Source of the DNA: Bdellovibrionales bacterium
GTDB taxonomy: Bacteria > Bdellovibrionota_C > UBA2361 > SZUA-149 > JAGRAN01
Length of the DNA: 34,136 bases
Direction: 5' to 3'
NCBI GenBank assembly: GCA_020434585.1
Contig: JAGRAN010000127.1
Location: 1 to 34,136, forward strand
The translations under genes were made by a program, and so were the position numbers. This document shows, piece after piece, positions 10,020 through 34,136 of the stretch (position 1 is the stretch's first letter; each line of letters begins with the position of its first letter). The notes below the pieces were generated by a model. The model saw only the letters and a list, made by a program, of their open reading frames with translations. It made no database searches and was not told the DNA's origin.

Positions 10020-10035
10020 GCAAGCATCATGCCGA
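10020..10035 (-). promoter_or_regulatory. Sigma-54 (-24/-12) promoter of the flgB operon
   Basis: The minus strand reads TCGGCATGATGCTTGC. It has GG and GC elements with exactly 10 bases between them, a GGCA -24 core and a perfect TTGC -12 core. The start of transcription is predicted near 10009, giving a leader of about 36 bases before the flgB ATG with its AGAGGA ribosome-binding site. Control by the neighbouring sigma-54 activators is inferred from position. Confidence 0.75.
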
Positions 10036-10062
10036 ATTGAGCGTTTTGGTAACTGCCTTTAA

Positions 10063-10135
10063 ACGCTGCGGTTTTTCTAAACTGCTAGTTCTCGCAGCGT
10101 CGTCTCTTTGACGCCTGATACGCACAGCGTCAAAG
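10063..10135. repeat. Two inverted repeats between the response regulator and the flgB promoter
   Basis: One repeat has arms CTTTGACGC (10106-10114) and GCGTCAAAG (10127-10135), a perfect 9-bp pairing with a 12-base spacer, starting 10 bases past the response-regulator stop. The second has arms ACGCTGCG (10063-10070) and CGCAGCGT (10093-10100). Neither is followed by a T-run on the minus strand. They lie roughly 55-125 bases upstream of the predicted flgB start, where enhancer sites for sigma-54 activators are expected, but the first could also act as a weak transcription-end hairpin. Confidence 0.45.
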
Positions 10136-10144
10136 GACCACCAC

Positions 10145-17900: not shown

Positions 17901-19760
17901 GTTTTCGGCAACGGACTATTGTGCAGCGACAAGGCGAAACTGATCGCAGCGTTTAACCATAGACACATCTTCATCGATCCGAATCCGGATGCCGAGCTCT
18001 CTTTTAAAGAAAGAAAGCGCATGTTTGAAACTCCGGGCACCCAGTGGACGGACTATGATGCTTCTGTGTTGAGTACTGGCGGCGGTATCTACAACCGCGG
18101 CGATAAAGAAATAGAACTCTCAGAAGAAGCTGCCCGAGCTTTAGGAATTAAAGAGCGCCTTCTTTCCGGTCAGGAGCTAGTCAAGGCGATCTTATGTTCT
18201 CCGGCGGACCTACTTTGGAACGGCGGAATCGGAACCTACGTAAAGTCTTCGACAGAGTCCAATATGGAAGTCGAAGATCCTGCCAACGACGATGTTCGCG
18301 TTGATGCGCGAGAGCTGAGAGTGAAAGTTGTTGGTGAGGGAGGAAACCTCGGTTTTACGCAGCGGGCGCGAATCGAGTATTCAAAACTTGGCGGTCATAT
18401 CAACACGGACGCCGTCGACAATTCCGGTGGCGTAGATTGCTCAGATGCGGAAGTGAACCTGAAAATTCTGCTAAACGAAGAAGTCAGACTGGGCAAAATA
18501 ACATTGGAGGAGCGAAATGAGCTTCTCGAAATGTGCGCCGACTCAGTATGTCGCAAGGTAATTGGGCGCAATCGCTCACAGAGCATGATACTTAGTTTGG
18601 GTGTCCGCCGCAGCCGTAAGAATATCGATTATTATCGCGGCCTAATTGCACAGTTAGAAAATAACGGCGTGCTGGATCGTGAAGGCGAATTTCTTCCCGA
18701 TGACGAATCTTTAGTTAAGCGCAGTCAACTGCGTGCAGGCCTTACCCGGCCCGAACTTGCCGTCATTATCGCTTACGTCAAGATTGCGCTGTTCGAAGTC
18801 ATAATGAAATCATCTCTGCCGGAAGAGCCGTTCGTAGAGCGTTACTTGCTTAGCTACTTCCCCGCCAAAGTCGTTCAGCGATTCAGGGCAGAAACAGAGA
18901 AGCATCCGCTGCGTAGAGAAATCGTTGCGACCCAGATTGCGAATGAATTGGTCGAACGTATGGGCGCATCGTTCGTTTATCGGCTCACTCAGGAAACTGG
19001 CGCGCCTGAGATAGACATCATTTGTGCGTTCTTAGCTGCTGATACTCTGCTCAGTGCTGACGCGCTGAAGATTGAGCTGCGCGTCATGGACAAAGCCTCG
19101 ACGACAAACAGCCACCTGAAAGCGCTGCTCACGATGACTGCCGCGCTTGACGGCATGACCCGGTGGCTGCTCGAACATCGCAATCCAAATTGGTCTTGGG
19201 GTGAGCTGATTGAGCGTTACCAGGAGCCGTTTACGTTGTTGCTTCGAGAGACAGAAGGATTGGTGACCGAGGTCGAGCTACGTAGGTTCCAAGAATCGGT
19301 TAAGCGCCTTACGCTGAACGGGTTCCCAGAGAATCTTGCGAAATCTGTTGCATCTATCGCCTACGCAACTTCTTACCTGGATATTGCGCAGATCGCTTTT
19401 GGGCTAGAGAAGAAAGTTACAAATGTCGCGAAGCTTTATGCGCGACTAGCCGCTGAATTTCAGACCACTAATCTTCTTGAGCAGGCTGCTGATATTGAAC
19501 CAAACGATCGCTGGGAAGCTCTTGCCGTTCGAGCGATTTCAGCCGAACTCAAAAACAGTATTGCAACGATTACTCGCAGTGTAATTGAAGAAGTTGGTGA
19601 GCCGACAATTGAAGCGATGGAAACCTATCTGTCCAGGCGGACCGAAGTGGCACAGCGCTTTAGGCAAAGTATGCGTGAGTTTCACAACAAATCGATGTCA
19701 ATTCCGGCGATATTGGTGCTGACGAATCAGCTGCGTGCGCTGTCTAAGCTGTACGTTTAA
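14964..19760 (+). CDS. Large NAD-dependent glutamate dehydrogenase (GdhB-type, about 180 kDa)
   Basis: 1598 residues, the typical length of the L-GDH180 class. It oxidises L-glutamate to 2-oxoglutarate and ammonia with NAD and is cytoplasmic. A long N-terminal regulatory region (about 1-700) precedes the catalytic core, which has GGLRWSERKDDYRTE (about 809-823) and the substrate-binding lysine region PVGAKGGF. A Rossmann segment VVGIGDMSGDVFGNG lies at about 969-983, and VVGEGGNLGFTQRARIE lies further on, before a helical C-terminal domain. The start is preceded only by a weak GGG ribosome-binding site. It runs against all its neighbours and ends one base from the stop of the converging glycosyltransferase gene. 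No role in motility is implied by its sequence; it looks like a metabolic gene inserted in the locus. Confidence 0.93.
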   Translation: MASSTFLARHSGAAAEKLAELHRSLTGGTNGTSPSANVELLKDNPLGLAELLFRRAPDDFLSRSHVGTLSYLSHQLNTFYFDFLESNKEYKVVELDLSSRNEGKYVTSFMLALYDRPFIVDTLTEFFREQGLRVFTYLHPILTGPGDKVISLNYIELEKIESLDRVQELYDSISSIMADLALVTSGFQPMIDRARSCALSVEEGYSDSKTVVQARETADVLHWLTDGGFVFLGHRVWQPGSGPASEGFDYDPSLDLGLFCSTTNAYREGLQFTSRDAEFLFNRDTFLHFSKLLLKSPVHRRIRMDAVCVKVPTETGDAIHCFVGLLTSKAIAQEASSIPFIRRKLKQIIELEGVYPNSHDYKETLSIIDSMPKFELFQGATSALRRDVQIILSSYQAHETRVSTHLDALRRIVSVMVVMPRERFTVGVRQRIQNFVEKTLRVPQGESEYSLAVADDPLVRLHFFVPNHTGKELSVDAREFEQRISELTLTWDDNLFRSLVENGQEHAARKLTAFYSRALPEQYKAGTSADEAAYDIQMLESLNETENLQIAVRSAADDLSGVHVNLRIYKKGGGLTLSSIVPFLENTELVIVDEQSTEITTQESVWAAIYNFRVRKNSGQKFPIDDAQNFFVPGLRDVINGKADNDRLNALLLDAGLAVSDLAILRTAQRYLWQIKVFTSTKSIVLGIARNPSIAAIIVEYFRTKFEPGIFDGPSPERLAKLEEIEQRFVLRLKEVSNLLDDRVLRAMLGVFKATVRTNYYHGSNIPIGLKIECRKIAAMPSPRPMFETFVNSPDFEGVHLRGGKVARGGLRWSERKDDYRTEILGLMKTQMVKNSIIIPVGAKGGFIVRGEATRESVENCYRKFIRTLLQLADNRVSDEIVHPPNTVIYDPDDPYLVVAADKGTATFSDIANSISIDEFDFWLGDAFASGGSNGYDHKKLGITARGAWEATCRHFREVGIDVAEQEFKVVGIGDMSGDVFGNGLLCSDKAKLIAAFNHRHIFIDPNPDAELSFKERKRMFETPGTQWTDYDASVLSTGGGIYNRGDKEIELSEEAARALGIKERLLSGQELVKAILCSPADLLWNGGIGTYVKSSTESNMEVEDPANDDVRVDARELRVKVVGEGGNLGFTQRARIEYSKLGGHINTDAVDNSGGVDCSDAEVNLKILLNEEVRLGKITLEERNELLEMCADSVCRKVIGRNRSQSMILSLGVRRSRKNIDYYRGLIAQLENNGVLDREGEFLPDDESLVKRSQLRAGLTRPELAVIIAYVKIALFEVIMKSSLPEEPFVERYLLSYFPAKVVQRFRAETEKHPLRREIVATQIANELVERMGASFVYRLTQETGAPEIDIICAFLAADTLLSADALKIELRVMDKASTTNSHLKALLTMTAALDGMTRWLLEHRNPNWSWGELIERYQEPFTLLLRETEGLVTEVELRRFQESVKRLTLNGFPENLAKSVASIAYATSYLDIAQIAFGLEKKVTNVAKLYARLAAEFQTTNLLEQAADIEPNDRWEALAVRAISAELKNSIATITRSVIEEVGEPTIEAMETYLSRRTEVAQRFRQSMREFHNKSMSIPAILVLTNQLRALSKLYV

Positions 19761-19761
19761 T

Positions 19762-21129
19762 CTACGTCTTCTCGGCGATAAAAGAGCTTAGGCGGTTGTC
19801 GCGTCTGACTTTAGCCTGATCGAGCTGCTGAACAATTTCCCTGCGAAATGGGGCAAGAGTCGGACCGGCCATGTTGATCAGTTCCTGTTCATTTGGTCCG
19901 AAGTGGCGTGCGATCTCAAGAGCTTCGCCGCGTCTTCCTGCGGTTAACAGCGATTCGATCACGCTTAGTCCGACAAGAAGTGTGTCCGGAAAGAATCCGT
20001 AAATTGTTTTAATAAACTCGATTGCTTGCTCAGCCTTGCCGCGATGCTCGTATTCGTACTTGCAGAAGTGGACCGATGTCATGAAGGCGTTATTGTTGAT
20101 TTCCTTCTTAGACGCGCTTTGAATCAGAAGTTTTGCCGCTTGGTCTAGCAACCTGTCGGCGAGTATGTTTGAAATTCGTCTGACGGTCGTCGAGCTTGTG
20201 TATACTGCAGAGCCTTCGCCGAAGTAGCGATAAGGCCGTGGGGTGACTTTTGTGTCCCTTAAGCGCTGTTCAAGGAATGTTGCTCGCGCCATCATAGTAT
20301 GTTCTTTACATACGGCTTCTCTGCCTGCGGCGGCGATGCGCGCCCTTTCCTCTTCATGTTCTAGATAGTAATTGCATTTCGCTGCGGCCTCCTGGGCGTT
20401 TCCATCTTCGTAGGTTACTAGGTGAACGTCTTCTTGGAAGAGCTCGAGCAGGCCGTTATTCATGCGCGGAGTTATCAGCAGTGCTCCACACATCATCGCC
20501 TCGAAAACTCTAAAGTTTAAATCGTCTTTGACAGACTGATTAACGACAATCTTGGAGCGTGGAAATGACTCGGCGTATCGTCCGGTTTTAGCGTCTAAGT
20601 TGGTTAGCTGTCCCAGCTCACCAAAGAATTTTGCTCGCTTAGGGTGTAAGTCGGGATCTAGATTGCCGCGGAAGCAGACATCAATTGTAGGAGTTTCAGC
20701 CGGCTCAATCTTGATCGGTGCCCACAATGGCAGCCATTCGATACCGCTGCAGTACTCGCTAAGGCTCTGAATGTAGTTTTTCTGTGCAACCAGTGTTTTG
20801 TCGAACACTGCGCAGAAGCACGAGTGCCACCACGAATGATGGTGGGCATCGACTGAGTAGAATAATGTCGGGATGTCTATCTCCGCCAGCCCTGTTACGG
20901 CCAAGGGTCCACTGTCGTCAAGGTATAGGATACGTTGAGGTTTGAAGCCGCTTGGCAGCATTGCCAGCACTTCTTTTATGGGTGTGGATGGAAACTTGAA
21001 GTAGATGTCTAGGGATTCGCTGACCCATCCGGCCGAAACGACTCGGTGTCCGAGTTCACGCAGTTCGTTGACAAACCAGTCTTGGTTAAGAACCAGAATT
21101 GCTAAGCGTTCGTTTTCTGCCACAGGCAA
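19762..21129 (-). CDS. CgeB-like glycosyltransferase with helical C-terminal region
   Basis: 455 residues. The first 280 or so form a GT-B glycosyltransferase of the CgeB/Glyco_trans_1_2 type: a Rossmann-like N-terminal half with an HHHSWWHS segment, then the donor-binding signature NFRVFEAMMCGALLITPRM (about 205-223) and a C-terminal KEHTMMARATFLEQRL. The last 150 residues are helical and TPR-like. No membrane segment is seen. The start is a TTG at 21129 (a GTG lies two codons further) only 4 bases after the stop of the previous gene, with no clear ribosome-binding site, so translation is probably coupled. Likely part of flagellin or surface glycan transfer; donor and acceptor are unknown. 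Confidence 0.75.
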   Translation of the reverse strand: MPVAENERLAILVLNQDWFVNELRELGHRVVSAGWVSESLDIYFKFPSTPIKEVLAMLPSGFKPQRILYLDDSGPLAVTGLAEIDIPTLFYSVDAHHHSWWHSCFCAVFDKTLVAQKNYIQSLSEYCSGIEWLPLWAPIKIEPAETPTIDVCFRGNLDPDLHPKRAKFFGELGQLTNLDAKTGRYAESFPRSKIVVNQSVKDDLNFRVFEAMMCGALLITPRMNNGLLELFQEDVHLVTYEDGNAQEAAAKCNYYLEHEEERARIAAAGREAVCKEHTMMARATFLEQRLRDTKVTPRPYRYFGEGSAVYTSSTTVRRISNILADRLLDQAAKLLIQSASKKEINNNAFMTSVHFCKYEYEHRGKAEQAIEFIKTIYGFFPDTLLVGLSVIESLLTAGRRGEALEIARHFGPNEQELINMAGPTLAPFRREIVQQLDQAKVRRDNRLSSFIAEKT

Positions 21130-21133
21130 GTAA

Positions 21134-24100
21134 CTAGGGGTTCGCCGCCGACTCAGCTAGCTCTTCGTTAATTTTGTCCAGAAGCTCATTTGCCATGGCG
21201 TGTCCGGCATCAAAGATCAGAATCTTCTCTAGCTCCGACTTTGCGTCCAGCAATCCTCCCTGGGCATACAAGCATCCGGCGTACGAATACAAGATTGCCA
21301 GGTCAGCCGGGTGAATGTCGAGATAATTCTCTAAAGCAGCCTGCACTTCCGGCGCTTTATTCAACTCATAACCGACTTGGACCATGCCGAGCAGCGAACG
21401 CATGTTCTCGCAATTGACCGTTAAAGAACGTTGGTAGAAATCCCAGGCGTCGTGCAATCGACCCTGCTTCATCGCACAGATTCCAAGACCTGCTAGCGCT
21501 TTATCGTTGTCCACCTGACAATTGAGAGCGTCCTTGAAGTGGCGCTGAGCGTTATCCCAGTCCTGGCGAGCGGCAGCAATTGCGCCAAGCGCCGTTTGTG
21601 CACGGGCGCGGTGTACGCGGTCTACTGCAACTTCCTGAAGGAGCTCCTCAGCTTCGGTCAGTCGTTCTAGGCAAGCTAAGGATTCGCCTTTCAAGATAAT
21701 CGCAAAACTGCGCTGATCAGGTCGGGCGCTCGCATCGCTCGAAACTTCATCGGCTTCGATAATTACACGACCGTAGTCGCGCGCCTCTTTTGCTTTTTCT
21801 AATTCTCGCAGCTTCTGGTCGAACGCATGGCTAAAAGTTTGGCTAATACCGGCAGGCTTAGCTGGCTGGGCGACCTCCGCTTTCGGCTGAGCGGCCCCGA
21901 GCTTCTCCTCGGCCAGTCTTTTCAGTTCCAGTGCATCCGCATGCTCAGGCTGATCTTCAAGGAGATTGCTTAAAACTTTGATACACTCGTCGAACTTCTG
22001 TTGTTTGAAGCAGCATCCGGCCAGGCAATACTTAATTTGGAAATCACCGGGTTTTTGCGTCAGATACTGGATAAGCGCGTTCTCGAGCGACGCCATTTCG
22101 TCTAGAACATAAGCGGCATTTAGCAGTTGAAGCAGGATCGATGAATCTGCCGGTGACCTCTCAAGCGCCTGTTCGTAGAGCTTGTAGCCTTCCTGCTGCT
22201 GTCCCAGAGTCCACAAGCATGTACCAAGTCCTGCAATGGACCGTGCGTCCGTCGCGTCGAACTTAATTGCTTGCTCAAAATTTACTGTCGCCTGGTCTGT
22301 GCCGCCAAGCTGTAAATACATTACGGCGCATGAGCGGTAAGCTCGTCCAAATCTGGGGTCGATTTCAAGTGCGGCTTTATAGTGAGATAAAGCTTCTTCG
22401 AATCGTCCTTCCCTCGCAATTACATCAGCTTCGTCGCAAATAATTGTCGGGTCGGGTGCGTCTGGCATTCTGATTGGCGCTAGTGAACGCATCTTATCCG
22501 CAATTTGGGATACGGTTCTTGAAGCCTCGGCTGCTGTGTCAGACGCAGTTTCGATAGTCCTGACGAGAGTCTTATTCGAATTGTCGATGGACCATTCCGG
22601 AAGCTCGTAAGAAGATCGGTTTAACTTGGGAGATGCTGACAATACAGCTTTGTAAACGCCTAGAACCTGCTTAGCTGCATTTTCCCAAGTGCGGTGCTCA
22701 ACCGACTCCATCAAACCTGCCTTAGGAGGAGTGTAGTAAGCGGCCATAACTGCGTTGTAAATGCTCTCAGTGTCACCCGGATTGCAGTAGTAAGCTGAAT
22801 CGCCAAAATAGTCTTTTGGAGTTCCGTAATCCGTCACTACAATATTTGTATTGTGCCGAGCTGCTTCCATTGAAACGATGCCGGGAAGTTCGTACCAGCT
22901 CGGAAGAGCATGGACCCGGGCGGCGGCAAAGGCGCTGGAGAGCATTCTGGCATCCAGTCGGTCGAGAAAGATAGTTTGGCCGCGGCGCTTGAACTTCTTG
23001 CACTGCTCTTCATATTCAGGCTGATAAGTAAAGCCACCGGTAGCAAATACTACGGTAAGTTCGCTGTCATCTAGCGCCTTCAGCAGGCTCAGCTGATTCT
23101 TCCGAGTTTCAAGTCGTCCAACGCAGAAGATGAAGTCCTTAAGTCCGGTTTCAGCGGTGAACAGGTCGCCGTTTGGTTCAATATGCTCCAAGTTGCATCC
23201 GCAGGAATACAAATCGACTCTGCGAACATTTGGATAGTCGCGCAGCAATGACTGGCGTTCCCGTTCGCCGGTAGCGATTAACGAAGCCGCATGTTCAGCC
23301 GTCCACGTATTCTCCCATCTTTCACTAGGTTGGGCGTTCTTCGCCATCTGGCTGAGTTCGCCCCATTTGCGCTTTGGCTGTCCGGCATTTGTATATGCCT
23401 GAAGCACTTCAAACTGAGCGAACATTTGGTTGTAGAACAGCGGTAGATCTTCATACATGGTCGTAACCACGTAAGGCACGCCTGCTTCGTGTGCTCTGCG
23501 AGCAAAAGCTTCCGTGATTTGAGGTGTTGCAAAATTGTGTATGTGTACTAGATCGTATGCACGAACGTCAGCGGTCCCGTCCAAGTCATATTCGACATGA
23601 ACGTTCATTGCTCGCAGCCCTTCGGCAACTCGCTCCATGACTACTGTGTCGCCGCCGCGATGTGTAAGTGCATTACTGCGATTCTGCATTAACACCCGCA
23701 TAATTGGTTGAGCTGTCGAAGCTCCTCGCGACTTGATCTCTTCCAGTAAAGATTTACGCCTTTCCGCCAGTTGGCGATAAAGCACTAACAATTTTTCAGC
23801 TACTGCAGGCCAGCTGTTCTTTTCTGCCCACGCGGCCGCAGAGCTTCTTAAAGTACTATTGAGCGTTTGATTACTTAGAACCAGTTCCAAGGCCATCGGA
23901 AGCGGGTAGCCGCTCGTGACATGAAAGACTGTATCAGCAAATCTTGCGAAGGTCGGAGCAGTGGACGCTATTACGGGAGCTTTGCAGCCGAGGGCGCGAG
24001 CGATAGCACCTGATGCTTCGTAATATGTGGAACGATAGTTCATGACTACGGCATCAGCTGCACAGAGAAAATCGTTCACTAGTTCTTCGGACGCAAATTC

Positions 24101-24859
24101 ATCACGGATAGTGATGAAGGATTGAGCGCCCAGCTTAGCGACCAATTCCTTGATTGCTGCTACGTAGCGCACTGAGTTTGGATCTTCGTGGTGGGCTCCG
24201 CCAATAATATATAAGTGTAAATTCGGGATTTTTGCTTTGAGCTCTGCCGCGGCAGTTATCGCTTCGTCAAAACCTTTATGGGCTTGTGCGAAGCCGAAGC
24301 ATACGACCACTTTCTGCTCACTTGGTATGCCCTGGCGTTGTCGCGCTTGCGCCGGGTCTTGATCGATTCCCAGCACACCGTGCTCAAGGACATGAACGGA
24401 CTCGGGCGCTGCTCCATTGGCAATTGCCTCAAGCTTGTTTTCCGGAGTGTGAACTATAATCGCGTCGGAACCCTGCATTAAGGCAATTAGACTCGGATCG
24501 ATCGTGTAAGGGTTGTGGACGTGGGCAATGATTTGTACACCGGCTGCACGTTGCTCGCTGAGAAACTGTGTAAGAACATGAGCCTTGAAAAAGCGATAGT
24601 GGCAGTTCAAATGGAGAATTTCGATCTCACTGCGCTTTATCTCTTCAGAGAGTTGAGTAAGTGATGAGGTATCGCGCTTCCAGCAGCGGCGAACCCTGCT
24701 GTCATCAGGAGCTGTTAGCTGCTCTGCACCTGCGGTTTCGGCAAGGACTATGATTTCTTCGTCCCGTAGGGCACTGATCAAATAGTCGGCGTAAGTTGCC
24801 AGTCCGCACTTCTGATTAAAGGTCGTTACAATACCGATTCTTGGTTTTCCGGTATCCAT
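21134..24859 (-). CDS. Two-domain GT4 glycosyltransferase with TPR tail
   Basis: 1241 residues. The first GT-B/GT4 domain (about 1-370) has an N-terminal KCGLATYADYL motif, a VVCFGFAQAHKGFDEAI start of the donor half and the ASGAIARALGCKAPVIAS donor loop. The second GT4 domain (about 385-745) has FCVGRLETRKNQ at about 580 and PSWYELPGIVSMEAARHNTN, the E-x7-E type motif, at about 670. The rest (about 815-1235) is tetratricopeptide repeats with an internal duplication. The N-terminal third of each GT half is consistent with acceptor binding. No transmembrane segment is seen. Ribosome-binding site AAGGAAG lies about 10 bases before the ATG. It probably builds a glycan from two sugars on a protein bound by its TPR region; that mechanism is inference. 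Confidence 0.85.
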   Translation of the reverse strand: MDTGKPRIGIVTTFNQKCGLATYADYLISALRDEEIIVLAETAGAEQLTAPDDSRVRRCWKRDTSSLTQLSEEIKRSEIEILHLNCHYRFFKAHVLTQFLSEQRAAGVQIIAHVHNPYTIDPSLIALMQGSDAIIVHTPENKLEAIANGAAPESVHVLEHGVLGIDQDPAQARQRQGIPSEQKVVVCFGFAQAHKGFDEAITAAAELKAKIPNLHLYIIGGAHHEDPNSVRYVAAIKELVAKLGAQSFITIRDEFASEELVNDFLCAADAVVMNYRSTYYEASGAIARALGCKAPVIASTAPTFARFADTVFHVTSGYPLPMALELVLSNQTLNSTLRSSAAAWAEKNSWPAVAEKLLVLYRQLAERRKSLLEEIKSRGASTAQPIMRVLMQNRSNALTHRGGDTVVMERVAEGLRAMNVHVEYDLDGTADVRAYDLVHIHNFATPQITEAFARRAHEAGVPYVVTTMYEDLPLFYNQMFAQFEVLQAYTNAGQPKRKWGELSQMAKNAQPSERWENTWTAEHAASLIATGERERQSLLRDYPNVRRVDLYSCGCNLEHIEPNGDLFTAETGLKDFIFCVGRLETRKNQLSLLKALDDSELTVVFATGGFTYQPEYEEQCKKFKRRGQTIFLDRLDARMLSSAFAAARVHALPSWYELPGIVSMEAARHNTNIVVTDYGTPKDYFGDSAYYCNPGDTESIYNAVMAAYYTPPKAGLMESVEHRTWENAAKQVLGVYKAVLSASPKLNRSSYELPEWSIDNSNKTLVRTIETASDTAAEASRTVSQIADKMRSLAPIRMPDAPDPTIICDEADVIAREGRFEEALSHYKAALEIDPRFGRAYRSCAVMYLQLGGTDQATVNFEQAIKFDATDARSIAGLGTCLWTLGQQQEGYKLYEQALERSPADSSILLQLLNAAYVLDEMASLENALIQYLTQKPGDFQIKYCLAGCCFKQQKFDECIKVLSNLLEDQPEHADALELKRLAEEKLGAAQPKAEVAQPAKPAGISQTFSHAFDQKLRELEKAKEARDYGRVIIEADEVSSDASARPDQRSFAIILKGESLACLERLTEAEELLQEVAVDRVHRARAQTALGAIAAARQDWDNAQRHFKDALNCQVDNDKALAGLGICAMKQGRLHDAWDFYQRSLTVNCENMRSLLGMVQVGYELNKAPEVQAALENYLDIHPADLAILYSYAGCLYAQGGLLDAKSELEKILIFDAGHAMANELLDKINEELAESAANP

Positions 24860-25479
24860 ACCGAATACTTCCTTTCTCGAGCTGCGCTCTCCTACGTTAA
24901 AAAACTCGGTCGACTATTGCCGACTGATTTATGCTTTCATGCAGCTTCAGAGAATCGGAACGAAGGGCTATCCTTAACCAAAACCCATAAAACCGTATGG
25001 CAGCACTCTTTAGATGCAGCTTAGCGCTGCACTACTCACCACAGTCCTCCTTTCAAGAAGCGTTCCAATCTTGCTCGGTTTGGCTGCCGCGGTTTACTTT
25101 GTTTCACATGCAGCAGGGTTTTTGAGGAATGCCGCGGTAAGACGACTAGGGTCAGTGGTCGAAAAAGATAGGTAAAAACAAAAGGTTAGTAGGGTTATGT
25201 GCAGAATCGACCGGCTCGCTCTTGCGGTTATTTCTGCCTAACTTTACTCTGTTTAAACTAAGAAAGGCGCTCCCGAAGAAGAATTCTCTGTGTTTAGTTG
25301 GGCTTAAGCCCTAGTTAATTTGACGCCGGATCCAAACTTTTGACAGCAGTTCTCCCCTTCCCGCAGTGTATATAACCTGTCCAAGGGGTGTTTTAACTCT
25401 GTTTTAAAACTAGCCTTCAGGTGTCGAGGCGAAGCGGTCGATGTATAAATGAGTAGAAGAACATAGCTTTCTGAATTAA
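24860..25479. other. Divergent intergenic region, no gene recognised
   Basis: About 620 bases between the GT4/TPR gene (-) and the Cas4-like gene (+). No reading frame with protein-like composition was found. TTGACA at about 25341 and TATAAC at about 25372 resemble promoter elements but are too far apart (about 25 bases) to form one promoter. No tRNA, terminator or sigma-54 site was recognised. Confidence 0.4.
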
Positions 25480-26391
25480 ATGGCCGACGATCAACACCAC
25501 CGCACGCTCAGCGCCGCTGAAATTTCAAACTACGTCGTCTGCCCCGAAGCTTGGCGGCTTAAGTACATTGAGCATGCGCGCTACGAGCACGGCGAAGGCA
25601 CAGAAGAAAGCAAAGAGCTGCGAGAAGAATGGGTGCGTCAACACGACCTGAGCAGCGAACTTCGCGAATACGCCACAATTGCGTACTTACTGTTGTTTGT
25701 TCTGGCTGTGTTTGTCTTTGCCTGGGACCAGGTACGCGAACTCGAATCTCAGGCTTTCGAAGGCGAAAAGAAACTACTGCACATCATCGATTCCGCGAAG
25801 CAGGCGATACCGCTCGAAATCCTTGGCCTGTTCTTGGTCCTTGGGATTTTGATTTTTGTTTGGGATCTGCTTGACCGTAAGCGCCGTTCGATTCGACAAA
25901 GCGCAGGTGTCGGCGAGAAGACTGATGTCATTGCTGTGCGCGGAAGTTCCGAACTCCCGGGTAAAAAGTATTATTCAGAAAAGCTGAAGCTTTCGAGCCG
26001 ACCGGATGCATTACTGGTCGAGGAAGGTTTTATTGTTCCCGCCGACCGCAAGCCGATGACTAACAAAGTGCGCGATCGTCACGTTATTCAGCTGCTTGTT
26101 CACTGTCGGCTGGTTGAGGAAGAAGAAGGTAAGCGGCCGCCGTATGGTGTGTTATTCATGGGTAAGAGCGTTCGCACCGTTAGAATTAAAAACACAGATG
26201 AAAAGCAGCGTTGGCTGGATAGTGTGCTCGCCGAGATGCGCTCGATACTTGGGGGCGTGCCCGCCGTTCCTGCGCCGAGCAAGATGAAATGTAAGTATTG
26301 TGATGTCCGGCAGTACTGCAGCCATAGTCGCTTTCACTCCCGAGGTGAAGATTCGAGCGACTCTGGCGAGGAAGAAACTACTGCGATCTAG
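25480..26391 (+). CDS. Cas4-like PD-(D/E)XK protein with inserted transmembrane hairpin
   Basis: 303 residues. The N-terminus LSAAEISNYVVCPEAWRLKY (10-29) is the Cas4/RecB-like opening with Cys21. The nuclease core has RPDALL (Asp176) and PADRK (Asp189, Lys191), matching motifs II and III, followed by the helix RHVIQLLVHCRLVEE with the usual Gln. The C-terminus KCKYCDVRQYC supplies Cys271, Cys274 and Cys280, so four cysteines are placed as in the Cas4/AddB iron-sulfur cluster. Between Cys21 and the core lie two clear transmembrane helices (about 64-81 and 111-129), which Cas4 proteins lack. No CRISPR array or cas gene is nearby. The start has no good ribosome-binding site. It is the only plus-strand gene in the glycosylation block. 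Nuclease function is predicted, not shown. Confidence 0.78.
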   Translation: MADDQHHRTLSAAEISNYVVCPEAWRLKYIEHARYEHGEGTEESKELREEWVRQHDLSSELREYATIAYLLLFVLAVFVFAWDQVRELESQAFEGEKKLLHIIDSAKQAIPLEILGLFLVLGILIFVWDLLDRKRRSIRQSAGVGEKTDVIAVRGSSELPGKKYYSEKLKLSSRPDALLVEEGFIVPADRKPMTNKVRDRHVIQLLVHCRLVEEEEGKRPPYGVLFMGKSVRTVRIKNTDEKQRWLDSVLAEMRSILGGVPAVPAPSKMKCKYCDVRQYCSHSRFHSRGEDSSDSGEEETTAI

Positions 26392-26398
26392 TTTCGAC

Positions 26399-27001
26399 TT
26401 ACTGCTCGCAATATTTGCTTTGCAAGGACAGGCAAAACGAGCGGATCTCCTCTAGGTGAGGAACGAGTTTGCCGTCGATTACGTCTGCCATGAGGATCCA
26501 CGATTGGTGAAGCTGGTGCTGAACGATTTCTTCTGAGATCTGAAGAATCGGAGTTATTTTTTCGCTGTAGCTATTCACATCTTGCTCAGCAGTTTCTGCA
26601 AGCACTTGGAGCACGGCGCTGTACCAATTGAAGAATGCTTTCAAGTCGTCCATTGATTGGCTGAAAGAATTGTTGGCGTCTTCGTTACTGCCTTGTCGGA
26701 AAAGTTGTGCGCTTACTTGCAGCTGCTCGGCGATTTGCTCAAGATATCCTCCAGCTTGAGACAAGCGCTCAGAAACGTAATCCTCTTTTGAGCCCGTAGT
26801 AACTTCAAGCATTGCGTCGCCCTGCACGCTGAGCGGGACTCTCCAGTCTGCGTCGCTAAGTTCTTTTCCTTCGAGAACGAGAGAGGTAATGATGCTGTCT
26901 GGGTCGATTTGCGCTTTGATCAATTCTACGAGGTCGGCCATCGTGTTGATTGTGCCGATGTCGCTCAGCTCCTGCTCGCCGTTAATCTTGACACGTACCA
27001 T
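26399..27001 (-). CDS. Hypothetical protein: ubiquitin-like N-terminus plus helical domain
   Basis: 200 residues, acidic and soluble. Residues 1 to about 70 have the strand/helix/strand pattern of a ubiquitin-like beta-grasp: VRVKING, the helix TMADLVELIKAQI, then SLVLEGKELSDADW and AMLEVTTG, laid out like the ubiquitin LIFAGKQLEDGRTL segment. Residues about 75-200 are long amphipathic helices (SERLSQAGGYLEQIAEQLQV and on). No catalytic motif is seen. It starts 3 bases after the GT9 gene stop and is co-transcribed with it, converging with the Cas4-like gene 7 bases away. The helical part and the placement between glycosyltransferase genes and fliS could fit a chaperone or adaptor, but that is a guess. 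Confidence 0.6.
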   Translation of the reverse strand: MVRVKINGEQELSDIGTINTMADLVELIKAQIDPDSIITSLVLEGKELSDADWRVPLSVQGDAMLEVTTGSKEDYVSERLSQAGGYLEQIAEQLQVSAQLFRQGSNEDANNSFSQSMDDLKAFFNWYSAVLQVLAETAEQDVNSYSEKITPILQISEEIVQHQLHQSWILMADVIDGKLVPHLEEIRSFCLSLQSKYCEQ

Positions 27002-27004
27002 GTG

Positions 27005-28726
27005 TTAGTTCCAATTCTGCTCTATGTTGTACTTAAACAGCTTAGCAAACTTTTGGCCGCGCCGTCTGAGATTTTCGTAAATTTGCTTCATTTCCGAGGC
27101 TAGATGCACAGGATCAGCGCCCTGCATGTTCTGCTGCTCCATTACAAACATTCTCACCAGTGCGCCCAGCATCGGATAAGCCAGCCCGATATCTTCGATA
27201 TGGCGGTTGATTGCGTTAATTTGAGAATTAACTTCACCCAGCAAGCTAGGTGGGCTCGAAACATTTCGGATAAGCTCAACCAATCGCTCGGAAACTTCTA
27301 CTCCTTTTACAGCTGCGTTAATTGCCTCGTCAAGGCCTGCTGTGCCCTCAGCTCTGTGATCGATTACAGCAAGTTTGTTTGTAGCCTCGACATGAGGAAC
27401 ATCTTTAACAGGCATCATGCCGAATTCTTCCTTCCACAAGTGCCGATAAGCGTCCATTGCTGCGTCGAAGTATGCCGGATGATAACCGAGGCGCGCTGCC
27501 GGTGAGTTAAGGCGTCTAAAATCTAAAAAACCCTCTTCGTCAAAATCGCTGTAGTACACGGCGACTTGATCGGGCGGACATAGTGTCTCGTCGATTGCAA
27601 GGCTGGCAACTTCCTCTGCAGAAGTTGCTAGGCGAAGCTTAAGCAAGTAGGCGACCATCTCTGGTGTGATCTGATCATGGCAGTCTGGTCGCGGACAAGA
27701 AAAGTTTGGATTACATGGATTGCAGCTGATTTGCGGCTGAATGATTAGGTTGCCTCTGCTATAGGGACCTGTTTCGAAGCAGTACGCCGAGGCAAGAAAT
27801 AGCGCGATCACTGGGGTGCCGACGGCAACGGCAAGATGCATTGGGCCAGTATCACCTGTTATTAACGCATCAGCGCGCTGCAGCAGTGCTGCGAGCTCGC
27901 CTAGGTTAGTCTTGCCCACTGCGCTTGCGATGTTGGGGTGATTGTAAATGCTAAGGATTTTTTCGATGATCGCTGCTTCACCTGCCGCACCGGTCATAAT
28001 GACTCGAGCACCATGTTCTTCAACCAGCTGCTGCAGCAGGCGGGCAAACTTAACAGGCGCCCATTGACGCTTTTCCTGGCTAGCTCCGGCTTGAAGACAC
28101 ACGAGAGGACCGCTGGCGGAGCTTAGGCCGTGTTCGGCCAGAAACTTGTCAGGAAAGGAATGAAACTGCTGCGGAATTTCATAGACCAAATGACGCGGGT
28201 GCGTGTGAACGCCTGCGGAGCAGCGAATTACGTCAACCAGGTTAATCGAGTTGTAGTGCCGATTGGAGTGATAGACAAAAGCGGCGAAGAGCATCGACCA
28301 TGGGTTAGAAATAATACGATTCCCTTCGTCGTCGGCAGTCCAGCCGTAGCTGCGTTCAATGCCGATCATCTTGAGTAGCAATGCTGTGTAGCCGGCCGAT
28401 GCCATGTTTACGCAGTAGTCAAAGTTCTTTGCTCGTAAATCTTGGACTAGCTTGTGGACATATTCGTAGCCGTCAACGATTCCGTCTCCATCCCGGTGTA
28501 GGCTGCGAACGACCATGGACAGATCGACTTCATACAGCTCGTCAATGCCGGGAATCCCCTTGCAAATTGCGGAGAATTGGCGATCGACAAGAACTGTTAA
28601 TCTTGCGCCTGGAAACTGCTCTTTCATCCCGACAATTGTCGGCGACGCCTGCAGCAGGTCTCCCAGTCTGGTAATTGCAACCAGCAGGATGTTGCTAACG
28701 GGTTTCTGATCGAAGCTTGTTGACAT
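27005..28726 (-). CDS. GT9 heptosyltransferase-like glycosyltransferase
   Basis: 573 residues from the ATG at 28726; a TTG two codons upstream is the alternative. The N-terminal 360 residues are a GT9/WaaF-like GT-B enzyme: NILLVAITRLGDLLQASPTI opening, CLQAGASQEKRQWAPVKFA donor-half start, and ITGDTGPMHLAVAVGTPVIALF, the family signature. A cysteine cluster (SCNPCNPNFSCPRPDC) follows, as in other GT9 proteins. The C-terminal 200 residues are helical and unassigned. The family transfers heptose or related sugars from ADP/GDP-activated donors, classically in LPS core; here the setting points to a flagellar or surface glycan. Its start overlaps the previous gene by about 32 bases. Confidence 0.85.
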   Translation of the reverse strand: MSTSFDQKPVSNILLVAITRLGDLLQASPTIVGMKEQFPGARLTVLVDRQFSAICKGIPGIDELYEVDLSMVVRSLHRDGDGIVDGYEYVHKLVQDLRAKNFDYCVNMASAGYTALLLKMIGIERSYGWTADDEGNRIISNPWSMLFAAFVYHSNRHYNSINLVDVIRCSAGVHTHPRHLVYEIPQQFHSFPDKFLAEHGLSSASGPLVCLQAGASQEKRQWAPVKFARLLQQLVEEHGARVIMTGAAGEAAIIEKILSIYNHPNIASAVGKTNLGELAALLQRADALITGDTGPMHLAVAVGTPVIALFLASAYCFETGPYSRGNLIIQPQISCNPCNPNFSCPRPDCHDQITPEMVAYLLKLRLATSAEEVASLAIDETLCPPDQVAVYYSDFDEEGFLDFRRLNSPAARLGYHPAYFDAAMDAYRHLWKEEFGMMPVKDVPHVEATNKLAVIDHRAEGTAGLDEAINAAVKGVEVSERLVELIRNVSSPPSLLGEVNSQINAINRHIEDIGLAYPMLGALVRMFVMEQQNMQGADPVHLASEMKQIYENLRRRGQKFAKLFKYNIEQNWN

Positions 28727-31517
28727 AAGCAATCTGCGCTTTGAGATTGAACATAAACATCAGCATCTGCTCGACCTCGTCGAGTGCGCCTTTTCCAAGC
28801 TGAATGTCTGCTACCAGCTGTTCAAGTTTCGGTTCCTCTCCTCTTTGGTAAACCTTCTCCAGCCTCTCTTTTAGTTCGGGATACTTCTCTGCGGCGGCCA
28901 GCGTCTTGGGCCAAGGTCCTTCGCTTACGCGAGAGCGCAAATATTCAGAGCGATCTGCATAGATATAGCCGAGCATCGACTTCACTCGGTGCTCGTAAGT
29001 GTGCTCTTCGAGGACACGTTTGCGAGCTGCTTCTGTAATAGCCGTGCGCTCTGCTGGATTTTGCAGAAAGTACTTAATTTTGTCTTCCAGCTCATTCCCA
29101 TCACTGAAAGTAGCAATTTCGCTTCCGACGGAGAAAAGTTCGGGCAGTAATGTTCGATTGTCCGCTAACTGAAATGCACCTGCTGCTGCAAGTTCAAACG
29201 TGCGCGGGTTTACAAAGTCTCCGAAAGGATCTACGCCGTCACGTTCCATTGAAGAGTGGAGATTGAGATTAATCTCTGAGCTGTTGAATATTTTTACATA
29301 CTCTTCCGGTTCAAGCCGTCGTCCACCTTCCTGAACGAGTTTGTCGAAAGGGTGACTCTTCGGCCACTCGGTGCCCCAAATCTTAAACGGCATGTTGGCG
29401 AGCTGCGCAAACATTTGCTGCCGGTTATGATATCCCGCCCCTAAAAAGGAAATCGGTGAACCCCAACGAGCTCGCTCCTCTTCCGGAACATTAAGCGGTT
29501 TGTGAACGTGAGGGTCGCATGCCAGCGGAAGATAAATAGCTCTGCCAGCTCCCGCGGCCTCAACATAGGTAGTAAACGGTTCCTTCTGAATCAGGAACAT
29601 GTAATCGTAGTAGCGGGAAATCTGCTGCCAAGTGGCAAACCGTCTGCAGTCTTCCACAAACCACATTGCGGTAATAATGCCGCGGTTGCGCATCTCCGTC
29701 AGCGCTTCTGGAGACAAAGGTGCCTGCGCCAGGCTGATCATAATATCAACAGGTCGTTCGCTCAGGCCTTCTAAAACTATTTCAGACAACATTTGCACGA
29801 AGGAGCTCTCAAGAGAGCTTCGTCGTGATTTGTCGCGCACGAACTCAGGCAGCTTCTTGTACGGAGGACAGAAGTCTGACAAGTCGTAGTACTGAACTCG
29901 ATGGCCGAGCCGCCGAAACGCATTGTAGACATAGCTGGCTATTGGGAGTGAGCCCCCGTAGATCGGACCGACTACGGCAATTGACGGCCGCAGACCTTCA
30001 GCAGAGCGCTTTGACCAAAAAATTGTACGAATTTCGTCTACGAAACTGCGATGAAGCGCGTGGGTTTGAGGGTGCGCAATAATAGTTGTTTCGACGTGAT
30101 CAGCGGATAGGGATTCGCTTACCTCCTTAAACTGTTCAGGGGTAATTGTCAGCGAATCCAGTTGACCCAGCAAGTTAGTGTAGTCCTGAATGCCTAGCGC
30201 CGCTCTAAGTACTCGCGGGTCAGGCTCTACTACATGGACATTAGAGCCCATTTTCTCAACAAGCGATGCTAGATGATATCCGGAAGCGAATCCAATGACG
30301 ATCAGTCTTTCACCGCTTGGCCTGCAGCAGCGTTCGGCCCAAACTTCTCCGGCACGTCGTGGCTTGTCTTTTTGGTCGAGCGCTGTATCGCCACGATAAA
30401 CTACTCCGTCACCGCTGCCCGCGCGTCGAACAGATACTTCCGCATCCGGCGCGATGGTAGAAGCAAGCTTGTGAACTTCAGGAAATCGCTCTGCGAGGAC
30501 TCTTAGATTTCGTTCGAAAATTTCTGCGGACCACTCGCCAGTATTTGCACTTGCGGGTGACTGTTCGCGTTTCGAAGGAGCGGCTCCTGTTTTCAGTTCT
30601 TCAAGAAGCTCAATAACCTGTGGCTCGGGGCTATCAAAATGCTGAACCGCAAATTCCAAAGCCTCGCGCGCTTCACTAAGTTCACCTTTATCTAGGTGCT
30701 GCTGCGCTCGGGCAAGGGCCATTAAATATTCTGTTTCTGAGCCGCCCCAACCAGATCCCGCACTCTGCTCACCTCCGGGCATGAGTATCTCAGCAATCTG
30801 AGCGGCGCTTAAACTTGGCTGTTCGTTTTTAGTGAGATCTACGAATTTGGCGTACAAGCCAGCTTCCTCGTCGGATACCTCGAATGGCAAGACCAGCTCT
30901 CTTACGCCGACAACTGAAAATCCTGCCGCCTGAACAGCGGCGACGAAACGGCCCTTGTCGTAGCAGCGAATTGCAATGCTGTCTTCCTGCATTGCCGCTT
31001 GGGGTGAGCCAAGATAGAGCTGAAGACGTGCATGTCCGCCAGGCTTCAAAACTCGCTGCAGTTCAAGCAAGTAGGTAGCAACGACAGCAACTGGCATACT
31101 GGCAAGAGCTGCAAATGTGTATGCAAGATCGATTGAATTTGATTCAACGGCGCTTATGTCTGAACCATTGCCGAGATGAAGGGTCACATTGCTTTTATCG
31201 CTAAGGAGGCGCTGCGCTTCCGCAATTGCTTGTTCGGAAACGTCGACACCAATCACTTGCTTACAGCGTTTCGAGGCCGCACCGACAAGTCTCCCTACTC
31301 CGCAGCCCAGGTCGAGTGCAGTAGCTTGAGAGACGAATTTTTCGTCGAGACCCTTGAACAGCAAGGAGAGATCGCGGTCACCGGTTTCCCACATCGCGCA
31401 GTCGTCGTCTACGCCGTCACTCATCCAGTAGCGGTAATCGTGAGCGATGCGGCGATCCCACTCCGAGCGCATCCGGCTGCCCAGTTCTTGGAGTTTTAGT
31501 TTGTCGTCCGCTGACAT
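28695..31517 (-). CDS. Methyltransferase / Maf-like / CgeB-like glycosyltransferase fusion
   Basis: About 940 residues from the ATG at 31517 (MSADDKLKLQELG); an upstream in-frame ATG at 31583 adds 22 less protein-like residues. The order is as follows. A class I SAM methyltransferase (LDLGCGVGRL, then VIGVDVSEQA) covers about the first 230 residues. A short linker follows. A region of about 330-530 has FERNLRVLAERFPE and LIVIGFASGYHLASLV, resembling the Rossmann part of Maf motility accessory proteins. The last domain is a CgeB-like glycosyltransferase (AVVGPIYGGSLPIASYVYNA; IWGTEWPKSHPF; NPRTFELAAAGAFQLADNRT). The Maf resemblance is by eye. The protein probably makes and modifies a flagellar glycan. 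Confidence 0.75.
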   Translation of the reverse strand: MSADDKLKLQELGSRMRSEWDRRIAHDYRYWMSDGVDDDCAMWETGDRDLSLLFKGLDEKFVSQATALDLGCGVGRLVGAASKRCKQVIGVDVSEQAIAEAQRLLSDKSNVTLHLGNGSDISAVESNSIDLAYTFAALASMPVAVVATYLLELQRVLKPGGHARLQLYLGSPQAAMQEDSIAIRCYDKGRFVAAVQAAGFSVVGVRELVLPFEVSDEEAGLYAKFVDLTKNEQPSLSAAQIAEILMPGGEQSAGSGWGGSETEYLMALARAQQHLDKGELSEAREALEFAVQHFDSPEPQVIELLEELKTGAAPSKREQSPASANTGEWSAEIFERNLRVLAERFPEVHKLASTIAPDAEVSVRRAGSGDGVVYRGDTALDQKDKPRRAGEVWAERCCRPSGERLIVIGFASGYHLASLVEKMGSNVHVVEPDPRVLRAALGIQDYTNLLGQLDSLTITPEQFKEVSESLSADHVETTIIAHPQTHALHRSFVDEIRTIFWSKRSAEGLRPSIAVVGPIYGGSLPIASYVYNAFRRLGHRVQYYDLSDFCPPYKKLPEFVRDKSRRSSLESSFVQMLSEIVLEGLSERPVDIMISLAQAPLSPEALTEMRNRGIITAMWFVEDCRRFATWQQISRYYDYMFLIQKEPFTTYVEAAGAGRAIYLPLACDPHVHKPLNVPEEERARWGSPISFLGAGYHNRQQMFAQLANMPFKIWGTEWPKSHPFDKLVQEGGRRLEPEEYVKIFNSSEINLNLHSSMERDGVDPFGDFVNPRTFELAAAGAFQLADNRTLLPELFSVGSEIATFSDGNELEDKIKYFLQNPAERTAITEAARKRVLEEHTYEHRVKSMLGYIYADRSEYLRSRVSEGPWPKTLAAAEKYPELKERLEKVYQRGEEPKLEQLVADIQLGKGALDEVEQMLMFMFNLKAQIAYVNKLRSETR

Positions 31518-31583
31518 AATCCCATTCTTGGAAACGCACAAAAGTGCCAACCGCGGGCTTACCAGCCTATCGACTGGCGCCAT

Positions 31584-31737
31584 TTCGCCGCAAGTATTTA
31601 ACTTCTATAGAAAAAGATGCTGTGAGCTAGCTAATCGACGCGCATTCCGCGTCTAGGAAACAGCTTGCGCTGCTAATAGGCCGTAAACGCAAGACAACTC
31701 AAGCGTAAACGCACTAAAATAGACTGAAAATTTCGAA
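31584..31737. other. Spacer between the fusion enzyme and fliS
   Basis: No gene is seen. It holds a small inverted repeat GACGCG/CGCGTC (about 31638-31654) without a T-run, and a direct repeat of CGTAAACGCA (two copies about 24 bases apart near 31682-31713). Their meaning is unknown; neither looks like a normal terminator. Confidence 0.3.
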
Positions 31738-32214
31738 CTAGAACTGAACTGATAGCGATGAATTCTCTGGGGTTTCTTCAGTGGAGTGCTTCTCCGCCCC
31801 CTGCCCTCGCTCGAGAATATCGCTTAGTTCGTTATTGTATTTACCGCTGTCGATAATCTCGCGGTATGCTCCGGCGATCGTTTCGAGCAGATTAATCACC
31901 CGCTGAACTTTCTCCGGATCTTTCTGAAGATTAGCTTCCGTTAAGTAGAAAAGCATAAAATCGTATAAACGATCTAAGTCTTTTGCAATTTGCCCGCCCG
32001 AATCGAAATCGAGCGTGTTCATCAGCTCTGCAATAATCGCCTGCCCTTTGCTTAAAAAGCGGGCGAATTTAACGATGTCCTTGTTTACCAGGCCGTCTTT
32101 AGCGTGCTTTAGGAAATTAATGCCCCCGTCATACATCATGAGCAGGAGCTTGCCTCGATCTACTGTGGAGATCTGAACGTTCGTGTATTGCTTGTGTGCG
32201 TTCTTGGCGTACAT
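31738..32214 (-). CDS. fliS: Flagellin export chaperone FliS
   Basis: 158 residues, slightly longer than the usual 125-140 because of an acidic low-complexity tail. The FliS core is clear: NAHKQYTNVQISTVDRGKLL (5-24), LMMYDGGINFLKHA, then helices with ISKGQAIIAELMNTLDF-type sequence (KGQAIIAELMNTLD) and LDRLYDFMLFYLTEANLQKD. FliS binds the C-terminal part of flagellin in the cytoplasm and keeps it unpolymerised until export. It lies downstream of fliD, the conserved order; a gap of about 160 bases separates them. Only a weak ribosome-binding site precedes the ATG. Confidence 0.95.
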   Translation of the reverse strand: MYAKNAHKQYTNVQISTVDRGKLLLMMYDGGINFLKHAKDGLVNKDIVKFARFLSKGQAIIAELMNTLDFDSGGQIAKDLDRLYDFMLFYLTEANLQKDPEKVQRVINLLETIAGAYREIIDSGKYNNELSDILERGQGAEKHSTEETPENSSLSVQF

Positions 32215-32377
32215 AAACCGAAAAACCTGTGTTGTCTGATTCCCTAACGCTGTTGAAACTTCCTGTATCTATAATTGTTATCGTAAGTTTACCCCCTGCT
32301 CCTTTAGCGGTTTCTGGGAAGAAATCCTATTTTTTTAAGGGGAATCGCGTATTGCTAAGCAGTTGATATTATTACAC

Positions 32378-33790
32378 TTATAGCCCTGCCAAGATGCCGC
32401 TCAGCGCAGACTCCTTGCTTTGCAGTTCAGCGGTGATTTGTTCAAGTCGGGCGAAGCGCAAAGTTAGCGTTTCTCGCATTGAAGCGGTTTGCCGTTCGAG
32501 CTGCTCAATTGCGTCGTTTAAGTTAGAAATCTCGTTGTTATTTGACTCCTGCGCCAGGTCAATAAACCCGTTGAACTTCGTAAACTGGTTGAGCACTCCA
32601 GCTGTGCCGGCAACGTTGTCGGCGAAGTCTGTAATTACTTCGGACACCCCGGTTGAATCGGTGTTAACGGCTTCAATAAACTCATCAATATCAAAGCTAA
32701 GCGAGCCGTCCCGGTTTGTGGAGATACCGAGCTCGGACATTGCGGTGACTTCCGTTCCATTTGCCGACGAAGCAGCTAGCAACTGAGTTCTAAATCTTGA
32801 AATCAGATCGTTATCGACGTTAGTTTTGGCCAAAGTTCCGAACACGTTGGTCGCGTTGTCGCCGGACTCGATACGTTCGATAGTGTCATTTTCGTTGACG
32901 AAATCGACTATGTCGTTGAACGCATCGATCAATTCCTGTAGCTGATCCCCAGTCGAGTCGGCATCGTCGCTGATGGTGATAGTTGTTTGACCGGCGCTCT
33001 CAAGGTTAAAAGTTACTCCGGATATTACGTCATTGATGGTGTTGGTTTGACGCGTAATAGTTCCAGCAATTCCGTCAATAGAGAATGTTGCGTCAGTTGC
33101 GTCGGCGGAAGAGTCGTCGATTGTAATCGATCCTGTCCCTACTGAGTCGGTATAGCTTATTGAAATAGCACCCTCTTCTGTGCCTGTGTTTAAAGTCTGC
33201 AGCACAAGCTGGTAATTTGGACTGCTACTAGTTCCTGTGTTTACCGCGGAAGCGACGATATTCCCCTCAGCTCCCGGGTCATTATTAATAGCGTCAATTA
33301 CGTCTTGGAGTGTATCACCTGCTGCGGTGTCGACGTTAACGCTGATTACAAAGCTGCTTCCTCCAGTTCCTACGGTAATTGACAGTGTCTCATCGAAACC
33401 GGAGTCAGGATCGAACTCCGAGGTGAGGCTCGACCAAGGAGAAAGGCCATTGGTTATGTTTGCAGTTTCAGTGTTTGCTACTGAGGTCACTGTCAGCGTG
33501 TACGATGAATTAATCGCCGTCGTACCGGCCGCAGCCGTGGCGACTGTTGCGTCCGAGGTATTTGCCTCTTTCTTTACTCCGCCGCCATTAATCGTGCGAA
33601 ACTGATCAACCAGGTCGTTTAGCGCGAGAATCTTGGTGTTGAGTTCTTCGAGAGCGTCATTCTCAGAGTTGAGAAATTCTATCTCAGAGCGCCGCAGCTC
33701 GTTGGAAGATTCGCGGGCTTCGACCAGTGCGTCAATTAACGCAGCAGAGTCAATGCCAGACGCCAAGCCGGAAAACTGAATGAGAGCCAT
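32378..33790 (-). CDS. fliD: Filament cap protein FliD
   Basis: 470 residues with the FliD plan: N-terminal domain FSGLASGIDSAALIDALVEA (6-25), a threonine/serine-rich middle region typical of the exposed D2/D3 domains, and a C-terminal domain with QELIDAFNDIVDFVNEN, then MSELGISTNRDGSLSFD, and a coiled coil ending ESALSGILAGL. FliD pentamers cap the filament and insert flagellin. A strong GGGAGG ribosome-binding site precedes the ATG. A second fliD-like gene lies immediately upstream in the same orientation. Confidence 0.95.
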   Translation of the reverse strand: MALIQFSGLASGIDSAALIDALVEARESSNELRRSEIEFLNSENDALEELNTKILALNDLVDQFRTINGGGVKKEANTSDATVATAAAGTTAINSSYTLTVTSVANTETANITNGLSPWSSLTSEFDPDSGFDETLSITVGTGGSSFVISVNVDTAAGDTLQDVIDAINNDPGAEGNIVASAVNTGTSSSPNYQLVLQTLNTGTEEGAISISYTDSVGTGSITIDDSSADATDATFSIDGIAGTITRQTNTINDVISGVTFNLESAGQTTITISDDADSTGDQLQELIDAFNDIVDFVNENDTIERIESGDNATNVFGTLAKTNVDNDLISRFRTQLLAASSANGTEVTAMSELGISTNRDGSLSFDIDEFIEAVNTDSTGVSEVITDFADNVAGTAGVLNQFTKFNGFIDLAQESNNNEISNLNDAIEQLERQTASMRETLTLRFARLEQITAELQSKESALSGILAGL

Positions 33791-33838
33791 AAACTACTAC
33801 CTCCCTGTACTACCGCACTCCACAACCCGTTTGTGAAG

Positions 33839-33887
33839 GCCAGCACAACAGCTAATGCTGGCGAAAGCAGGCCCGGCGCCTGCTTTC
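33839..33887 (-). repeat. Two adjacent hairpins between the tandem fliD genes
   Basis: The first pairs GAAAGCAGGC (33863-33872) with GCCTGCTTTC (33878-33887), a 10-bp perfect stem with a 5-base loop, starting 3 bases past the upstream fliD-like stop. The second pairs GCCAGCA (33839-33845) with TGCTGGC (33856-33862), 7 bp with a 10-base loop. They abut each other and no T-run follows, so complete termination is unlikely; they could limit read-through, stabilise the upstream mRNA or mark a processing site. Confidence 0.6.
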
Positions 33888-33889
33888 CG

Positions 33890-34136
33890 CTAAAACTTCA
33901 GCAATCCTGCAATCAGGTTTGCGTCAGAGTTGAGCTTAGCGAGTAAGCCCTCGAGCGAAGTGAACTGGCTTTGCAAAGCCTCCTGCCGTGAGGTTGCACT
34001 GCGCTCGACCTTTGAAATCGTGTCCTGCAGGTTTTGCATTTCGCCGTTATTGGCATCCTGCGCACCATCAATCAGCTTGCCGAAACCGGTGAACTGCTGG
34101 ATGGAACCCGTTGCTCCGCCTAACTGGTCTGCGAGG
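33890..34136 (-). CDS. Second FliD-like protein, C-terminal part (cut by window edge)
   Basis: The minus strand is open from the window edge to a TAG at 33890-33892 and encodes 81 residues: LADQLGGATGSIQQFTGFGK, LIDGAQDANNGEMQNLQDTI and a final coiled coil ending ANLIAGLLKF. The order and spacing of hydrophobic residues follow the C-terminus of the neighbouring FliD (LADNVAGTAGVLNQFTKFNG ... SALSGILAGL), so it is a FliD paralog, with clear divergence between the two. It is incomplete here, so full length and integrity cannot be judged. Confidence 0.85.
   Translation of the reverse strand, partial: LADQLGGATGSIQQFTGFGKLIDGAQDANNGEMQNLQDTISKVERSATSRQEALQSQFTSLEGLLAKLNSDANLIAGLLKF

Follow-up and report, generated by a model that had tools for sequence, protein, structure and literature searches.

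A predicted membrane-bound Cas4-like nuclease, often encoded as two genes

Cas4 nucleases are usually described as soluble helpers of CRISPR immunity, and the type I-C Cas4 (PDB 8d3l), a soluble single chain, works with Cas1-Cas2. Members of the family are also encoded away from cas genes: these solo-Cas4 proteins have a PD-(D/E)XK core with four Fe-S cysteines (one N-terminal, three C-terminal), are mostly vertically inherited and have had no assigned role (Hudaiberdiev et al. 2017, PMC5704561). A Cas4-like nuclease of S. elongatus reduced transfer or maintenance of RSF1010 plasmids (PMC10653904). Pyrobaculum calidifontis Cas4 Pcal_0546 (PDB 4r5q) is likewise soluble and single-chain, while in AddB, AdnA and Dna2 the same fold, with the nuclease between Cys1 and Cys2-4, forms a domain of large helicase-nucleases. 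Finally, the nucleocapsid protein of virus TTV1, a viral structural protein, is an inactivated Cas4-like protein (cited in PMC5704561). Here we examine a Cas4-like gene on a 34,136-nucleotide stretch of DNA from a Bdellovibrionales bacterium (contig JAGRAN010000127.1 of assembly GCA_020434585.1; hereafter 'the window'). The initial annotation described it as a Cas4-like nuclease retaining the hallmark residues but carrying about 130 residues with two transmembrane helices between the first cysteine and the catalytic core, running against its neighbours inside a flagellar glycosylation block and without a CRISPR array or cas gene nearby. This observation proved correct.

The gene is an ORF without internal stops (Table 1). 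To establish whether it belongs to the Cas4 family, we first compared the protein with Cas4 and PD-(D/E)XK profiles, a comparison that had been proposed together with the original observation. Residues 173–281 match Pfam Cas_Cas4 (PF01930; 6.2e-9, 36.6 bits, gathering score 22.7) and residues 154–280 match PDDEXK_1 (2e-8), both above Pfam's cut-offs. The NCBI model TIGR00372 cas4, however, scores 61.1 bits against a cut-off of 65, and so the curated cut-offs taken together do not decide membership; the C-half of a split relative (locus L051; L numbers denote loci and G numbers genomes) scores 71.1 bits and does exceed it. PADLOC Cas4 models match down to 1e-17, with model PDLC01447 aligning residues 9–282 to its positions 4–159, leaving about 118 residues extra relative to that model. 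Hydropathy gives two membrane helices between Cys21 and the core. An AlphaFold2 model, built on an alignment of 58 native sequences, has a pLDDT of 90.1 and a pTM of 0.84, with two long helices (40–94 and 112–142) followed by a compact nuclease fold, and its best Foldseek match in the PDB is type I-C Cas4 8d3l (1e-6), followed by Dna2, Cas4-Cas1 and AdnA; 8d3l is also the closest solved structure by profile, while the best PDB profile match of the separate C-halves is 4r5q (4e-8). Lack of the PD-(D/E)XK fold in a model would have counted against the reading, as would poor conservation of the hallmark residues. We aligned 40 orthologues from the class to which the window's genome belongs. C21, C271, C274 and C280, as well as W25, W51, P175, G223, G228, P266 and K270, are identical in 40/40, while D176 is found in 39/40, D/E189 in 38/40 and K191 in 34/40. 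The window's protein keeps Q204 of the QxxxY motif that follows the catalytic lysine but has H208 in place of the tyrosine, whereas Q...Y is found in all class members outside the window's order; this is a secondary motif rather than a strict criterion. By fold, motifs and cysteines the protein belongs to the Cas4 superfamily. Substitutions against the sister species indicate strong constraint (pN 0.10 against pS 0.85).

Table 1. Positions of the features of the gene in the window and of further loci mentioned in the text.
Feature	Sequence	Coordinates	Strand	Residues or length	Remark
Fused membrane Cas4-like protein	window	25480..26391	+	303 aa	
N-terminal part	window	25480..25656	+	1-59	Equivalent to the soluble part of the separate N-half gene of split relatives, from alignment with split N-halves
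Cys21 codon	window	25540-25542	+	C21	
Membrane helix 1	window	25669..25725	+	64-82	
Loop between the membrane helices	window	25726..25803	+	83-108	Place where split relatives end one gene and start the next
Membrane helix 2	window	25804..25860	+	109-127	Followed by a K/R-rich stretch (inferred cytoplasmic side)
PD-(D/E)XK core plus Cys cluster	window	25924..26328	+	149-283	
D176 codon	window	26005-26007	+	D176	
D189 codon	window	26044-26046	+	D189	
K191 codon	window	26050-26052	+	K191	
C271 codon	window	26290-26292	+	C271	
C274 codon	window	26299-26301	+	C274	
C280 codon	window	26317-26319	+	C280	
Protein without Pfam match	window	26399-27001	-	200 aa	Next to the Glyco_transf_9 gene
Second, divergent split copy	L085 (G007)	10062-10798		83 + 162 aa	ATGA overlap
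Fused gene and ComEC homologue	L070 (G034)	2750-5257			Same strand
Independent fusion	L174 (G652)	4691-5680 of the reverse complement	-	330 aa	Two adjacent membrane helices
Uncharacterised upstream protein	L041	8336-8845			Also at 18 other loci; family of about 164-213 aa
N-half, C-half, nadK, small zinc-ribbon-like membrane protein, recN	L148 (G426)	7151-11129			All in one direction
C-half with broken reading frame	L086 (G038)	8979-9746			Matches in two frames

The window's genome, a 3.8-Mb draft, has one copy, and a profile search found an orthologue in 41 of 46 genomes of the class and in 19 of the 20 good ones, making it a class-wide core gene. It is not a CRISPR-associated Cas4: no Cas1 was found in the window's genome, Cas1 is present in only 9 of the 46 genomes of the class, and positions 18000–34136 of the window contain no CRISPR-like repeats; a role in CRISPR adaptation was rejected on these grounds. 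While being unlinked to CRISPR-cas places the gene with solo-Cas4, the two membrane helices, and often two genes, set it apart from solo-Cas4 as described, a single soluble polypeptide. 'Many Chloroflexi' are named as carriers of solo-Cas4, possibly including the C-halves described below; the main text of PMC5704561 does not contain the word transmembrane, and we found no description of a split in it. Similarly, we found no paper on membrane or split Cas4 in a literature search that left most subscription papers uncovered. In contrast to AddB, AdnA and Dna2, no helicase is attached or adjacent here.

In 18 of the 40 orthologues the protein is encoded as two ORFs, which are adjacent on one strand except in G010, where they sit at the ends of two contigs. 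The first ORF (about 83–123 aa; the N-half) carries the 'CPEAWRL'-type cysteine motif and one membrane helix at or near its C-terminal end, while the second (about 177–248 aa; the C-half) has one membrane helix near its start and carries the PD-(D/E)XK core and three cysteines. Every fused protein has two predicted helices and every half has one. Several pairs overlap by ATGA or GTGA (G002, G020, G029, G042 and G040), and each half has its own possible start codon. A tree of the family requires 7 parsimony changes between split and fused, of which at least 4 are forced by well-supported branches; since the tree is unrooted, it does not show the direction of these changes. The topology signal is clearest at the second helix, which is followed by positive charge in 39/40 orthologues, placing the core on the cytoplasmic side, and is weaker at the first helix (positive charge before exceeds that after in 25/40).

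The profile of the fused proteins also returned weaker hits in other bacteria, and reading these loci revealed the same split pair in genomes G104, G375, G355, G142 and G150; the pair occurs in Chloroflexota and in three further lineages. The phylum of G375 is identified as Chloroflexota by G482, the isolate genome of Herpetosiphon aurantiacus DSM 785 (its second contig is plasmid CP000876.1, at 100% over the 3 kb compared), which also has the pair. Among 301 Chloroflexota genomes, searches with a C-half and an N-half profile found both halves in 78, the C-half only in 2, the N-half only in 7 (five of them weak) and neither in 214 (Fisher p=4e-61, a value that ignores relatedness). Of the two C-only genomes, G652 in fact encodes a fused protein, an independent fusion, and G613 is a partial hit. 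In 27 of 30 fetched Chloroflexota loci the N-half lies upstream on the same strand, in three of them (L120, L121 and L131) with other sequence of 640–760 nt or more between the halves. In eight genomes the halves are on different contigs or far apart: in G588, a single contig of 3.32 Mb, they lie at 3,051,906 and 244,715, and the detached N-halves that we read still carry the Cys motif and helix. The two halves cover complementary parts of one Cas4 profile (N-half positions 3–54, C-half positions 53–159, E about 1e-10), although the N-half alone matches the Cas4 and PDDEXK_1 profiles only weakly (E about 0.02), and thus its membership rests on homology to the fused N-terminus.

Outside the window's order the PD...E-x-K motif is intact in all class members, as well as in the Chloroflexota C-halves examined other than G652, in which the first catalytic Asp reads Thr (GKPTYII). 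In the window's order, on the other hand, the active site is eroding and under relaxed constraint: 6 of 13 orthologues (G003, G007, G009, G010, G012 and G014) have lost K191, D/E189 or D176, yet none has lost a cysteine, which argues that nuclease activity is not essential there. The fused copy of G007 reads AIIRP, while the second, split copy in the same genome has an intact E-x-K. The window's protein keeps D176, D189, K191 and Q204 and is probably, though not certainly, active.

Gene neighbourhoods, whose comparison among homologues had been suggested as a check, are housekeeping and differ by lineage, and no single pathway is indicated. In the window the gene runs against its neighbours, which include Glyco_transf_9, a Maf_flag10_N protein and FliS. 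This flagellar glycosylation setting is shared only by some members of the window's order and is absent elsewhere; a flagellar or glycosylation function was therefore rejected, and we consider the neighbourhood incidental. Genes resembling methionyl-tRNA formyltransferase and peptide deformylase (def-fmt) lie downstream, with an uncharacterised 169-aa gene upstream, in one family and an RseP-like gene is found in Chloroflexia-type loci, both recognised by eye, while nadK- and recN-like genes follow the pair in one Chloroflexota family (L148, and also downstream in L147 and L155). In G034 the fused gene lies 63 nt upstream of comEC, the only such case seen.

Taken together, the sequences show a Cas4-fold core with conserved catalytic and cysteine motifs, one membrane helix in each half, halves that in many relatives are separate and sometimes unlinked genes yet are inherited together, and repeated switching between split and fused at the same point. 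From this we infer that the window's gene encodes the fused form of a membrane-bound, CRISPR-independent Cas4-type nuclease that in most relatives is a two-gene, two-subunit enzyme, an explanation that we consider more likely than not. In this view, the helices would pair in the inner membrane and place both soluble parts on the cytoplasmic face; the halves would build one Cas4 fold whose [4Fe-4S] cluster takes one cysteine from the N-half and three from the C-half, stapling the subunits together; and, like Cas4, AddB and Dna2, the enzyme would cut or resect single-stranded DNA ends, here at the membrane, in DNA repair or in handling DNA entering the cell. The assembly is a strong inference, whereas neither the cluster nor nuclease activity was measured, there are no biochemical data, and the pathway is not shown. 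Part of the clade in the window's order would have become non-catalytic while keeping the cysteines. Somewhat more likely than not, this is a widespread family in which the cluster-binding cysteines are divided 1+3 between two separately encoded membrane proteins, so that an inter-subunit [4Fe-4S] cluster at the membrane assembles, and possibly redox-switches, the nuclease, with the window's protein being one of several independent fusions. A cluster shared between two membrane proteins would be an unusual way to build a nuclease, and the split/fused switching is a natural experiment on it. A membrane-bound branch that is core in one class and common in Chloroflexota gives Cas4 outside CRISPR a place in the cell and a defined partner, and cultured isolates such as H. 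aurantiacus make the question testable. It also exposes a blind spot of annotation: the C-half matches Cas4 models, while the small N-half gets no family name.

The interpretation offered by the initial annotation is thus partly supported. While the Cas4 fold, hallmark residues, membrane hairpin and absence of CRISPR all hold, describing the nuclease as split by a hairpin undersells it, since in many relatives there really are two proteins with one membrane helix each, and the hairpin is the join between two subunits rather than an insertion peculiar to this gene. Its two functional suggestions, a nuclease acting on incoming DNA and a catalytically repurposed protein, are both still possible. 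That the protein trims or destroys single strands entering through ComEC, conjugation or phage injection, as a first line of defence or a competence nuclease, is a tentative reading: a membrane anchor with a cytoplasmic catalytic face would suit it, as would the comEC adjacency and the plasmid effect in S. elongatus (PMC10653904). However, the adjacency is a single case, ComEC is near universal (20/20 good genomes of the class) and its co-occurrence thus uninformative, there is no defence-island context, no viral relative was found in one scan of IMG/VR and inheritance is core-like. Equally tentative is a membrane-tethered repair or end-resection nuclease working with RecN-type repair, as suggested by the nadK and recN loci, the structural similarity to Cas4, AddB, AdnA and Dna2, and the core-like distribution in the class; nadK-recN is a common pair in bacteria, the link is limited to one family in the sample, and it does not explain the membrane anchor.

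A non-catalytic role, as a membrane Fe-S DNA-binding or redox-sensing scaffold repurposed as in the TTV1 protein (which is not membrane-split), is doubtful. It gains some weight from the loss of catalytic residues but not cysteines in the window's order, the Thr in G652, the intact second copy in G007 and the histidine in the window's QxxxY motif, but the catalytic motif is intact in all class members outside the window's order and in the Chloroflexota C-halves examined other than G652, and the window's copy keeps D176, D189 and K191. That the split forms are sequencing frameshifts, pseudogenes or programmed frameshifting of one gene is, as a general explanation, very unlikely: although most pairs are adjacent, several overlap by a few bases and the C-half frame of G038 is indeed broken (possibly a real frameshift or an assembly error), the same split point occurs in many families and several phyla, including the isolate genome of H. 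aurantiacus, and the halves can be separated by other sequence or unlinked.

To ask whether the membrane forms share an origin, we built a tree with 14 soluble Cas4 cores, which put all membrane types on one side of one branch, but with a support of only 61, and thus a single origin is not shown. An origin in viruses found no support: one scan of IMG/VR with the C-half profile returned no relative, and PHROGs gives only weak matches to exonuclease/Cas4 families. No consensus promoter was found for the window's gene. In much of the class outside the window's order, an uncharacterised protein with the motif C(G/A)RYAFWR(L/I)T is encoded directly upstream; the 169-aa representative has no Pfam or NCBIfam match, and its AlphaFold2 model (pLDDT 81) no PDB fold match at E<=0.001, providing no functional clue. 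Finally, the 200-aa protein encoded next to Glyco_transf_9 in the window is conserved at this position in the flagellar glycosylation block of six genomes of the order.
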